From an uncultured Anaerolineae bacterium (GTDB lineage Bacteria; Chloroflexota; Anaerolineae; Anaerolineales; Villigracilaceae): a stretch of 64,000 nt of DNA. This document shows positions 12,148-16,057 of the stretch, one piece after another. Location: assembly GCA_903875215.1 (NCBI GenBank), contig CAIQVH010000016.1, forward strand, positions 434,001 through 498,000, written 5' to 3'. The notes beneath the pieces were generated by a model, which was not told where the DNA came from, made no database searches, and worked only from the letters and a program-made list of their open reading frames with translations. Each line of letters begins with the position of its first letter. Position 1 is the stretch's first letter. Made by a program: the position numbers and the translations under genes.

Positions 12148-12330
12148 TTTTCCTCCAAATCAATCTGTAAAATCGTTAAAATCAGTCGCACCAGATGTAC
12201 GCAGGCGGGATGGGTGGGTTGCGCTGGGGGCAGCACATTACCAAGATGATAGCCGGTAGGGGCGCGCCGCGACAGGGGGCTGTCTGTACTAGCCGGCCAG
12301 GCTGGGCATGCAAAATCCGGGTTTTATCGT

Positions 12331-12344
12331 TACAATTGAATTAA
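12331..12344 (+). promoter_or_regulatory. -10 box for leaderless recO
   Basis: TACAAT (12331-12336) lies 7 nt before the ATG at 12344 and no ribosome site exists between them. The upstream ATG at 12308 would place the -10 inside the coding region. Confidence 0.55.
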
Positions 12345-13114
12345 TGAATCTGCCGCGCTCTTTCCGGGTTGAAGCTGTGGTCTTGCGTCACGTCGATTGG
12401 GGCGAGGCCGACCGCCTGCTGACGCTTTTCACCCGCGAACATGGCAAATTGCGCGTGCTGGCCAAGGGCGCGCGCAAACTGCTTTCGCGCAAGGCCGGGC
12501 ACCTGGAACCCTTTACGCACGTTGTTCTGCTGTTGGCGCGCGGGCGCGAACTGCCAGTCGTCTCGCAGGTGGAGACGATGGAAGCGTTTCTGCCAATCCG
12601 CGAGGATTTGCTGCGCACCGGCTATGCCGCGTACACACTGGAACTGCTCGACCGCTTTACCTATGCCGAGGAAGGTCACAGCCCGGCCCTCTTCCGCGTG
12701 CTGATCGAAACGCTGGGGCGTATCGCCGTTGAGCCGGAGGGCTGGCTGGCCGTGCGCTATTACGAGATGCGCCTGCTGGACGCGCTGGGGTTTCGCCCCA
12801 AGCTGTTTGAGTGCGCCAATTGCGGGCGCGAGATTCAACCGGTAGCCCAGTTCTTTTCCCCGGCGGCGGGCGGGGTGATCTGCCCGGCCTGCGGCACCGG
12901 CCTGCCGGGCCTGTGGCCGGTGGAAATGGAAATTCTCAAATATCTGCGCCACTTTCAACGCAGCAATTACACCGCCGCCGCGCGCGCCCGGCCTGCCGCG
13001 CAACACCAAAAACAGATCGAGACGCTCATGCAGGGCTATTTCACCTATCTGCTGGAACGCGAACTGAACACACCCGGCTTTTTGAAACGCGTCCGCCCGT
13101 TTCCCACCGATTGA
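12344..13114 (+). CDS. recO: DNA repair protein RecO
   Basis: A 256-residue recombination mediator that loads RecA at gaps with RecR. The N-terminal OB fold contains RVEAVVLRHVDWGEADRLLTLFT and GKLRVLAKGARK, the standard RecO opening. A helical domain follows, then a four-Cys zinc finger (CANCG near residue 156 and CPACG near 184). Length matches the family (about 240-260). I chose the ATG at 12344 over 12308 because homology begins there and the TACAAT box just before it suggests a leaderless start. The next gene starts 27 bases downstream with GGAGG. Confidence 0.93.
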   Translation: MNLPRSFRVEAVVLRHVDWGEADRLLTLFTREHGKLRVLAKGARKLLSRKAGHLEPFTHVVLLLARGRELPVVSQVETMEAFLPIREDLLRTGYAAYTLELLDRFTYAEEGHSPALFRVLIETLGRIAVEPEGWLAVRYYEMRLLDALGFRPKLFECANCGREIQPVAQFFSPAAGGVICPACGTGLPGLWPVEMEILKYLRHFQRSNYTAAARARPAAQHQKQIETLMQGYFTYLLERELNTPGFLKRVRPFPTD

Positions 13115-13141
13115 AGCACGCCCAACACCCCCTGGAGGCTT

Positions 13142-14956
13142 ATGCCATTTCTCAACATTCACGGCGCCGAACTCTTCTACGAAACCTTTGGCACCCCAAA
13201 ACCAGGGCAGGCTCCCCTGCTGCTCATCCATGGTTCCACCCAAACTGGCCGCTCGTGCTGGATGAACGTCGTCAACCACCTGGAACAAGACTATTTCATC
13301 ATCCTGCCCGACTGCCGCGGCCACGGACGGTCCAGCAACCCGCACATGACCTACACCTTCAAAGAACTGGCTGCCGATATGGCCGCGCTGGTCCGCGCCC
13401 TCGGCTTTGAAACCGCCCACATCGTCGGGCACAGCAACGGCGGCAACGTGGCCCTGCTGGTGCTGATGGAACACCCCGACGTGACGCAAACCTGCCTGAT
13501 CCAGGCCGGCAACGCCTGGGTCAGCCCCGACCTGGTGGAAAAAGAACCTCCCATCTTTGACCCCGATTTCATCGAACGCGAGCGTCCCGCCTGGCTGCGC
13601 GAAATGCAGGAACTGCACGCCCCCACCCACGGCCCCAACTACTGGCGCGACCTGATCCGCCTAACCCTGCGCGAGCTGATCAGCGAACCCAACTACAACG
13701 CCGCCGACCTGGCGAAGGTCAATCGCCCGGTCTTTCTGGTGCAGGGCGCCCGCGATCGCGTCAACGCCCCCTACCAGCACGCCGAATTCATGGCCCGCCA
13801 CATTCCAGCCGCCGCGTTGTGGGTGCCCAAAAACATCGGCCACACCGTCCATGAAGAAATTTTGGATGAATGGCTGGCGCGCGCCAAAGACTTCTGGGCG
13901 CGGCGCGGCAACCCCATCAGCGAAACCCTCTACCGCCATCGGCTGGAACATTATCCCGACGAACGCCAGGGCACCTTCGACGTGCGCCTCAGCCCCGATG
14001 GCACCCTGACCGGCACCGTCAGCACCCCGGAGATGCGCTCCATCGCGCTGGCCCTGGCCGGCAGACCAGCCGCCGAAAAAATCCACGTCCTGCTCGAAGA
14101 CTCCACCCCCTGGGCGCTGATCAACCGCCCGGTAGACGACCTGCGCCGCGGCCCCGGCCTCCTCACCGAACGCGTCAGCCAGGTGCGGCTCGGCGAAGTT
14201 GTCCGCCTGCTCGAGAGCGGCCCCGACTGGTCGCGCATTACCGTCGAACACGATTCCTACAGCGGCTGGATCCACTCGCGCGCCCTCTACATCTGCTCCG
14301 AAGCCGAAGCCCGCGCCTGGCAGGCCAGCTGTAACGTCCTCGTCAGTGCCGCGCTGGCCGAAGCCAGCGACGAACAGGGCGACCTGCTCCAAAAAGTGCC
14401 CTTTGCCACGCGCCTGCCCATGCTCACGGGCGATGAAACCCATGCCGAAATCAAACTGCCGGATGGCCGCCGCTGGATTTTGCGCCGCGCCGACCTGATC
14501 CTGCTGGAACAAGCCCCCCGCCCCGATCCCGCCGGAATTGACCTGACCCTCGGCCTGCTGCGCCGTTTCATGGGCATCCCCTACCTGTGGGGCGGGCGCA
14601 CCCCCTACGGGTTCGATTGCTCTGGCCTGGCCGGCACCTTTTACGCCTGCCTTGGCCTGACCATTCCACGCGACGCCGACCAGCAGTTTGCCAGCGGAAT
14701 CATCGTCAGCGGCCAGCCCCAGCCCGGCGACCTGTTGTTCTTCGGCGAACCAGCCGCCGACCTGCCCGGCCCCGACGAGCGCGGCTACGCCCGCGCCGCG
14801 CACATTTCGCATGTCGGCATCGCGCTTGGTGGGCAGGAATTCATCCACTCCAACGGCTCGGCCTGGGGGATTTCCATCAACAGCCTCGACCCTGCCAGCC
14901 CGCACTACGGCCAATGGCTGGCGGAAAATTATCGCGGCGCAAGAAGGTTCCGGTAA
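13142..14956 (+). CDS. Alpha/beta hydrolase :: SH3 :: NlpC/P60 fusion, probable muropeptide peptidase
   Basis: A 604-residue three-part protein with no signal peptide. Residues 1-262 are an alpha/beta hydrolase: oxyanion LLIHGST, nucleophile elbow GHSNGG (Ser near 98), acid in QGARDR and His near 234 in GHTVHEE. About 320-465 contain two SH3-like domains (LRRGPG...GWIHSRALY, then a second ending RRADLILLE). About 475-604 are NlpC/P60 with YLWGGRTPYGFDCSGL (Cys near 492), ISHVGIAL (His near 556) and FIHSNG. The C-terminal part has the layout of YkfC, a gamma-D-Glu-diamino acid endopeptidase. The dipeptide epimerase begins 3 bases later, which supports a role in peptidoglycan peptide recycling. 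The fusion joint is in one uninterrupted frame. Confidence 0.85.
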   Translation: MPFLNIHGAELFYETFGTPKPGQAPLLLIHGSTQTGRSCWMNVVNHLEQDYFIILPDCRGHGRSSNPHMTYTFKELAADMAALVRALGFETAHIVGHSNGGNVALLVLMEHPDVTQTCLIQAGNAWVSPDLVEKEPPIFDPDFIERERPAWLREMQELHAPTHGPNYWRDLIRLTLRELISEPNYNAADLAKVNRPVFLVQGARDRVNAPYQHAEFMARHIPAAALWVPKNIGHTVHEEILDEWLARAKDFWARRGNPISETLYRHRLEHYPDERQGTFDVRLSPDGTLTGTVSTPEMRSIALALAGRPAAEKIHVLLEDSTPWALINRPVDDLRRGPGLLTERVSQVRLGEVVRLLESGPDWSRITVEHDSYSGWIHSRALYICSEAEARAWQASCNVLVSAALAEASDEQGDLLQKVPFATRLPMLTGDETHAEIKLPDGRRWILRRADLILLEQAPRPDPAGIDLTLGLLRRFMGIPYLWGGRTPYGFDCSGLAGTFYACLGLTIPRDADQQFASGIIVSGQPQPGDLLFFGEPAADLPGPDERGYARAAHISHVGIALGGQEFIHSNGSAWGISINSLDPASPHYGQWLAENYRGARRFR

Positions 14957-14959
14957 ACG

Positions 14960-15991
14960 ATGAAGCTGACCGTCTCCCCACTCACGCTCCAGCTGCGCAC
15001 CCCCTTCCGCGTCGCGCACGGAGTCAGCGACCAGCGCCGCAATGTCCTCGTCACCCTGCAGCTGGACGGCCTGACCGGGTACGGCGAGGCCGCCGCCGTG
15101 CCATACTATGGCGATACTCAGGAAAGTCTGAGCGCCTACCTGCAAAGCCTGCCGCCGCTGACAGGCGACCCGGACGACCTGGAAACCTGGCTGGCCGTCC
15201 GGCCGCCCGGCCCGCACGCCGCCCAGGCCGCGCTGGATCTGGCCCTGCATGACCTGTGGGGCAAACGCCTCGGACAGCCGCTGGTTCGCCTGTTTGGGCT
15301 GGCCCCGGCGCCTCTGCCGCCCACTTCTTTCACCATCAGCATTGATACGCCCGAGGAGATGGCGCGCGCCGCGCGCGCGAGCGCCTACCCGGTCATCAAG
15401 GTTAAGCTGGGCCCGCAAGATCCCGAAGCCGCCCTGGCCGCCATCCGGCGCGCCACCGATGCCCGCCTGCGCGTGGATGCCAACGCCGGCTGGACGCCCC
15501 AGCAAGCCCTGGAGCTGATTCCGCGCCTGGAGCACTATGACCTGGAACTGGTGGAACAGCCCCTGCCGGTTGGCGACGTGGAGGCTTACCGCTGGCTGCA
15601 CGAGGAACTGCGCCGCAAAAACGTGAAACTGCCCATCTATGCCGATGAAAGCGTCAAGACCGCGGCAGATGTGGCCCGCTACGCCGGGGCGATTGATGGC
15701 GTGGTCATCAAGCTTATGAAAACCGGCGGCCTGCGCGAGGCGCTGCGCGCCATCCACACCGCCCGGGCTCACGGCCTGGGGTTGATGCTCTCCTGCATGG
15801 TTGAAAGCTCGCTGGGGGTGACTGCCGCTGCCCACCTGGCCCCGCTCTGTGATTTTCTGGATCTCGACGGCCCGCTGTTGATTGCCAACGACCCCTTTGA
15901 AGGCCTGCAATACCAGGGCGCCCACCTGCGCCTGCCCGAAACCCCCGGCCTGGGCGTTGCGCCGCGACCCGGCTCAAGCCTCAGCGCCTAG
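14960..15991 (+). CDS. Dipeptide epimerase, probable L-Ala-D/L-Glu epimerase
   Basis: A 343-residue member of the enolase superfamily, muconate-lactonizing/dipeptide-epimerase branch. Key residues are present: the KVKLG catalytic lysines (near 147-149), metal ligands in RVDANAGW, LVEQPL and YADESV, and the second lysine in IKLMKTGG (near 250). The C terminus has DLDGPLLI, typical of Ala-Glu epimerases (YcjG/YkfB), which convert L-Ala-D-Glu from murein peptides to L-Ala-L-Glu. It follows the NlpC/P60 fusion by 3 bases, as ykfB lies near ykfC in Bacillus. Specificity is inferred from context. Confidence 0.88.
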   Translation: MKLTVSPLTLQLRTPFRVAHGVSDQRRNVLVTLQLDGLTGYGEAAAVPYYGDTQESLSAYLQSLPPLTGDPDDLETWLAVRPPGPHAAQAALDLALHDLWGKRLGQPLVRLFGLAPAPLPPTSFTISIDTPEEMARAARASAYPVIKVKLGPQDPEAALAAIRRATDARLRVDANAGWTPQQALELIPRLEHYDLELVEQPLPVGDVEAYRWLHEELRRKNVKLPIYADESVKTAADVARYAGAIDGVVIKLMKTGGLREALRAIHTARAHGLGLMLSCMVESSLGVTAAAHLAPLCDFLDLDGPLLIANDPFEGLQYQGAHLRLPETPGLGVAPRPGSSLSA

Positions 15992-16004: not shown

Positions 16005-16057
16005 AATAAGAAAAAGACCCTGCGCTTGTTTTCAAGGCACAGGGTCTTTTTCTTATT
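16005..16057. terminator. Bidirectional intrinsic terminator
   Basis: An 18-bp stem (16005-16022 with 16040-16057, core AAAAAGACCCTG/CAGGGTCTTTTT) with A- and T-rich flanks. It closes the epimerase operon on plus; the lipoprotein on minus ends 78 nt away. Confidence 0.9.

Follow-up and report, generated by a model that had tools for sequence, protein, structure and literature searches.

The fused gene and its predicted epimerase partner

The window analysed here is a stretch of 64,000 nucleotides (nt) on contig CAIQVH010000016.1 of an uncultured Anaerolineae bacterium (phylum Chloroflexota), whose genome assembly comprises 38 contigs. On its forward strand, which carries all of the window features given below with coordinates, a fusion gene at 13142-14956 encodes in one uninterrupted frame a protein of 604 amino acids (aa), in which an alpha/beta hydrolase domain (ABH) precedes a YkfC-like endopeptidase module. 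The stop codon (TAA, 14954-14956) is separated by 3 nt from the ATG (14960) of a second gene, at 14960-15991, for a putative dipeptide epimerase (EPI) of the L-Ala-D/L-Glu type. An original prediction made from the sequence alone had described a hydrolase with a complete triad joined in front of SH3 and NlpC/P60 domains, and an epimerase starting 3 nt downstream. Both descriptions agree with what is found at the locus, with the qualification that the second SH3 domain scores below threshold.

The ABH domain is complete and spans aa 1-255 (13142-13906), the same extent as its free-standing orthologues. Abhydrolase_1 matches aa 25-163 with 93.5 bits against a cut-off of 25.8, which places the domain in this superfamily. 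The nucleophile Ser98 (13433-13435) lies within a GHSNGG motif, and the triad is completed by the acid Asp205 (13754-13756) and the base His234 (13841-13843); all three residues, as well as Asn99 directly after the nucleophile, are invariant in 28 fused copies. Further invariant residues of ABH are Asn124, His159, Tyr167 and Thr175. A 16-aa inter-domain linker (aa 256-271, 13907-13954) covers the interval between the ends of ABH orthologues and the starts of YkfC homologues from other phyla. The YkfC-like module (aa 272-604, 13955-14953) then consists of an N-terminal segment, a first SH3 domain (SH3b1; aa 334-382, 14141-14287; Pfam SH3_16/SH3_3), a region resembling the second SH3 domain of YkfC (SH3b2; aa 413-447, 19.9 bits against a Pfam threshold of 27.4) and an NlpC/P60 domain (aa 478-583, 14573-14890; NLPC_P60, PF00877, 69.5 bits against 23) with the triad Cys493 (14618-14620), His557 (14810-14812) and His569 (14846-14848).

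The best sequence and predicted-fold matches of the YkfC half are the solved YkfC/DPP VI enzymes 3h41 (YkfC), 3npf and 3pvq/4r0k (BT_1314), and this half was modelled well when AlphaFold2 was run on the full protein with 34 sequences. In Bacillus cereus YkfC (BcYkfC), the SH3b1 residue Tyr118 and Asp256 together bind the amine of the N-terminal L-Ala, a pair that marks the subfamily (PMC2954226). The equivalent residues of the fusion, Tyr373 (14258-14260) and Asp511 (14672-14674), are kept in 28/28 fused and 13/13 separate copies, and the equivalents of BcYkfC Tyr226, Trp228, Asp237, Ser239 and Arg255 are present without exception. Chlamydia YkfC cuts the gamma-D-Glu-diamino acid bond in free stem peptides but not in sugar-linked precursors, and it also takes the tetrapeptide directly (PMC9928106). 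Judged by these conserved residues, the YkfC half is very probably a gamma-D-Glu-diamino acid endopeptidase acting on stem peptides whose N-terminal L-Ala is free. It shares with the YkfC/DPP VI enzymes (3h41, BT_1314, Chlamydia YkfC) the SH3b and NlpC/P60 layout, the fold, the triad, the amine-binding Tyr/Asp pair and the adjoining dipeptide epimerase gene; unlike them, the fusion bears a complete N-terminal alpha/beta hydrolase, and its YkfC module is only ~30% identical to those of other phyla. B. cereus YkfC has a signal peptide, whereas inspection by eye reveals no N-terminal signal sequence in the fusion or in most separate Chloroflexota YkfC copies. A cytosolic role is therefore likely, in line with the cytosolic YkfC-type endopeptidase that had been predicted. 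In the genome of the window, no NlpC/P60 protein other than the fusion was found.

The EPI protein (343 aa) contains MR_MLE_N and MR_MLE_C domains of the enolase superfamily. Its closest solved match is the B. thetaiotaomicron enzyme 3iji (235 bits), followed by the L-Ala-D/L-Glu epimerases 1jpd (E. coli) and 1jpm (B. subtilis). Lys149, Asp173, Glu199, Asp229, Lys251 and Asp301-x-Asp303, residues with well-known roles in enolase-superfamily catalysis and in the DxD motif, are invariant in 32 orthologues. The solved-structure matches and this invariant set bear out the earlier naming of the gene as an L-Ala-D/L-Glu epimerase, and EPI is expected with high confidence to convert released L-Ala-D-Glu to L-Ala-L-Glu. 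Compared with YkfB, YcjG and 3iji, it shows the same enolase fold, Lys/Asp/Glu set, DxD motif and location beside ykfC, but it belongs to a divergent branch that scores under the curated NCBIfam equivalog cut-offs (DgcA, 246.9 against 400 bits; PRK15129, 156.5 against 343; NF041118, 135.9 against 500). Because of these scores we treat EPI as a divergent family member with a predicted activity.

Conservation and gene context of the fusion

A search for the architecture, proposed along with the original prediction, recovered the fusion, in frame and joined at the same place, at 27 other loci from independent assemblies; at least two of the phylum's classes are represented. Twenty-four of these loci lie in the class of the window, in distant families as well as in its own genus, with 48-67% full-length identity, and three in genomes of another class; these counts are lower bounds, as only a few candidates were scored for each genome in the class-wide searches. 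Among named records, the nearest comes from an uncultured Chloroflexi metagenome-assembled genome (MAG), with 60% identity. An alignment of 25 fused proteins contains 94 invariant positions, and both Ser98/Asp205/His234 and Cys493/His557/His569 are unvarying in 28/28 fused proteins. An assembly or sequencing artefact at the joint, the error that the original prediction had named as its possible undoing, found no support beyond a single related copy with a frameshift, and is refuted by the 27 independently assembled loci; we give it practically no weight. That frameshifted copy (L158, 5772-7798), the 26th from the same class, is interrupted between the hydrolase and peptidase halves and represents either a pseudogene or a MAG error.

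In phylogenetic trees, the fused YkfC modules group as one lineage, in which a single standalone copy is nested. This copy (L176, 5670-6521) is a YkfC module without the hydrolase, still followed by EPI, and probably reflects secondary loss of the hydrolase half.

Three gene arrangements connect ABH with muropeptide breakdown. In the first, seen at 23 loci including L158, EPI comes after the fusion in the same orientation. Six more fused loci do not show EPI: L160 and L214 are truncated at the contig end, L164 and L213 have less than 1 kb left downstream, and in two EPI is truly absent nearby (L175, L212). In the second arrangement, found at eight loci and at one more that reaches a contig end (L100), the gene before EPI encodes a free-standing ABH, and upstream of it lies a divergently oriented YkfC-like gene. 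The YkfC copies of these loci form their own clade with 100/100 support, separate from the fused YkfC group, and thus one hydrolase is coupled to two YkfC lineages. The third arrangement is seen in one family of another class (G972, G987, G1112), where ABH directly precedes EPI and no YkfC lies beside it. No NLPC_P60 match was obtained in the two genomes of this type that were searched (87-90% complete), and MurE is present in them. Taken together, these three arrangements indicate that ABH tracks EPI more closely than it tracks the endopeptidase.

Directly upstream of the intact fusion, an M55 D-aminopeptidase gene is found at six loci and an M19 dipeptidase gene at four; both are plausibly murein-peptide enzymes. 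In the ABH tree, fused copies occur throughout the group and split copies fall into one well-supported cluster, which suggests an old fusion with later separation, although the deep forks are weak and the direction is not settled. The conserved ABH-EPI pair, the two YkfC pairings and the M55 and M19 neighbours favour the earlier proposal that the hydrolase acts in the same pathway, and we regard it as likely that ABH is an uncharacterised serine hydrolase of muropeptide recycling.

Linkage of ykfB and ykfC has been described in several phyla (PMC2954226), and YkfC and epimerase genes are linked in 49/63 other-phylum loci examined here. A direct search of 35 other-phylum genomes having YkfC found no ABH at E<=1e-30; a wider contig scan used ABH peptides specific to the window and is hardly informative on ABH beyond the phylum. 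The dpp-ykf locus of B. subtilis (dppA, ykfA, ykfB, ykfC) has YkfB and YkfC in common with the window, and relatives add a DppA-like M55 gene. Unlike dpp-ykf, the window locus lacks an adjoining S66 YkfA or transporter gene, and ABH is extra. No published description of the fusion was found in the open-licence literature. The N-terminal hydrolase is the new element on the known ykfBC recycling module.

Proposed function and competing explanations

In the scheme that we propose, imported stem peptides whose N-terminal L-Ala is free would be cut by the YkfC half at the gamma-D-Glu-|-diamino acid bond, EPI would then epimerise the freed L-Ala-D-Glu to L-Ala-L-Glu, and ABH would release the amino acids from L-Ala-L-Glu or from a dipeptide product like it. 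With the fusion, the activities on either side of the epimerase step would be present in equal amounts on one polypeptide; such sequential processing within a single polypeptide is, like each activity in the scheme, a prediction built on an architecture, a conservation and a gene linkage that were observed directly. As a whole, this cytosolic murein-peptide catabolic unit is put forward tentatively, and we consider it slightly more doubtful than probable. The linkage of ABH to EPI suggests that its substrate stands at the EPI point of the pathway, where L-Ala-L-Glu hydrolysis is the step that is evidently missing; E. coli uses PepD for it (PMC2954226). Cleavage of L-Ala-L-Glu or a similar dipeptide after EPI is accordingly the single role we favour most for ABH, as a provisional assignment that could readily prove wrong. 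More broadly, ABH may quite possibly found a family of muropeptide peptidases with the serine-hydrolase (alpha/beta-hydrolase) fold, for example L-Ala-L-Glu dipeptidases or LD-carboxypeptidases, which would make the fusion a bifunctional recycling enzyme for two steps around the epimerase; this is a conjecture to which we give slightly less than even odds.

Several observations weigh against a peptidase role. Profile comparison of ABH with solved structures returns many short matches, and the colinear ones are only human BPHL (aa 3-252), which is the nearest, and esterases/lactonases such as Est1. BPHL (valacyclovir hydrolase) shares with ABH the colinear region, the ANAYV motif and the Ser/Asp/His triad, but ABH is bacterial and tied to muropeptide enzymes by fusion or operon linkage. 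The substrates of BPHL are amino-acid esters and homocysteine thiolactone; it is almost inactive on the peptidase substrate Lys-p-nitroanilide, and it uses Asp123 beside the nucleophile to neutralise the substrate amine (PMC4198189). The corresponding residue is Asn99 in 28/28 fused copies. Prolyl aminopeptidase models score far under their cut-offs (TIGR01249, 44.4 against 259.75 bits; TIGR01250, 33.9 against 167.65), and most of the ABH half has a predicted local distance difference test score (pLDDT) below 50 in the full-protein AlphaFold2 model (mean 36.6 for ABH alone, modelled with two sequences). In addition, most other-phylum YkfC/EPI loci are without such an ABH, so other enzymes can carry out the step. 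The suggestion that the hydrolase is an aminopeptidase or amidase gains nothing from similarity, which does not discriminate, and the near-inactivity of BPHL as a peptidase and the Asn99 replacement speak against it. A scan of viral contigs with the ABH profile gave no relative.

The matches to BPHL and to esterases and lactonases make an esterase, lactonase or thioesterase the alternative to be taken most seriously, although we still consider it unlikely. ABH would then act on a side product or a modified (e.g. cyclised or esterified) muropeptide and not on a peptide bond, as the top profile matches among solved structures (esterases, BPHL and enol-lactonase types) would lead one to expect, particularly given the ester and thiolactone specificity and near-zero peptidase activity of BPHL (PMC4198189). 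However, similarity is a poor predictor of chemistry within this superfamily. Nor do we know of any reaction at this stage of the pathway that would form an ester or a lactone. A different reading keeps the peptide bond and places ABH before YkfC, as an LD-carboxypeptidase that takes the terminal D-Ala off tetrapeptides and stands in, without homology, for YkfA/LdcA (S66). The third enzyme of the B. subtilis set, YkfA, is indeed an LD-carboxypeptidase (PMC2954226), no Peptidase_S66 (PF02016) match occurs anywhere in the genome of the window, and the nearby M55 D-aminopeptidase genes recall the dpp-ykf locus. Yet S66 is found in 3/14 ABH-bearing relatives and in 8/87 without ABH, which is no preferential absence; ABH pairs with EPI in genomes where no NlpC/P60 was found; and YkfC accepts tetrapeptides directly (PMC9928106). 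The LD-carboxypeptidase role is less likely than L-Ala-L-Glu hydrolysis, and we think it improbable. To our knowledge, no LD-carboxypeptidase has the alpha/beta-hydrolase fold, which also counts against it. The idea of S66 replacement as such received no support from the presence/absence comparison.

It is also conceivable that ABH has an unrelated housekeeping role and came to lie in the fusion and near EPI by chance or hitch-hiking, as might be supposed from homologues of 39-45% identity in two families without EPI or YkfC nearby, and from two close copies that adjoin an arginase gene. Chance association is difficult to reconcile with ABH, fused or free, lying directly before EPI in 34 loci, with two YkfC lineages in the same set and with retention of the fusion across two classes, and we judge this explanation about as improbable as an LD-carboxypeptidase, if not a little more so. 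What the locus offers is a conserved, testable but unassigned enzyme rather than a surprising mechanism. Recycling of peptidoglycan peptides is little charted beyond a few model bacteria; here, a retained, epimerase-linked fusion points to a specific recycling enzyme and a concrete assay, and its function could replace many 'alpha/beta hydrolase' annotations in Chloroflexota.

Neighbouring genes and related loci

The fusion gene is preceded by a possible ribosome-binding site (GGAGG, 13134-13138, read from the sequence) and by recO (12308-13114; RecO_N/RecO_C and TIGR00613 above cut-off), which lies on the same strand and is probably co-transcribed with it; recO also precedes the fusion in one relative of the same genus (L090). 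After the epimerase gene, an inverted repeat of 15 bp whose 3' arm is T-rich (16008-16054; arms 16008-16022 and 16040-16054), also read from the sequence, is a possible operon terminator. A pattern scan did not report this repeat, its loop being longer than the limit of the scan. The remaining neighbours in the window, encoding an aldo/keto reductase, a GSDH protein, a DUF1232 protein and a histidine kinase, have no evident link to the fusion.

Some ABH relatives occur in other settings. Close relatives (59%) in two genomes of one family (L093, 9042-10794; L152, 5237-6914) lie beside the arginase gene rocF (above the NCBIfam cut-off), with no EPI or YkfC. Some Chloroflexota have ornithine as the third residue of their stem peptides. 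In two other families, more distant homologues (L177-L187; 39-45% identity) have neither EPI nor YkfC in the vicinity and possibly form a paralogous family with another role.

The MurE protein encoded in the genome of the window (L188, C16:548353-549780) has an EDPR motif. DNPR is the usual MurE motif of diaminopimelate-adding enzymes. The EDPR motif does not allow a choice between diaminopimelate and another diamino acid, which leaves the third stem residue uncertain. At two loci with YkfC and without ABH (L103, 10018-11370; L199, 6985-8364), M20 peptidase genes lie beside YkfC, as at none of the other loci tested; the two M20 peptidases show no detectable mutual similarity at the threshold used, and a functional substitution for ABH is suggestive only, though it would fit a role of ABH in L-Ala-L-Glu hydrolysis. 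Finally, in the MAG of a Thermoplasmata archaeon (L063, 3851-5663), a YkfC-like gene is divergent from an epimerase-like gene, which is explained either by an archaeon that uses murein peptides from bacteria or by misbinning.
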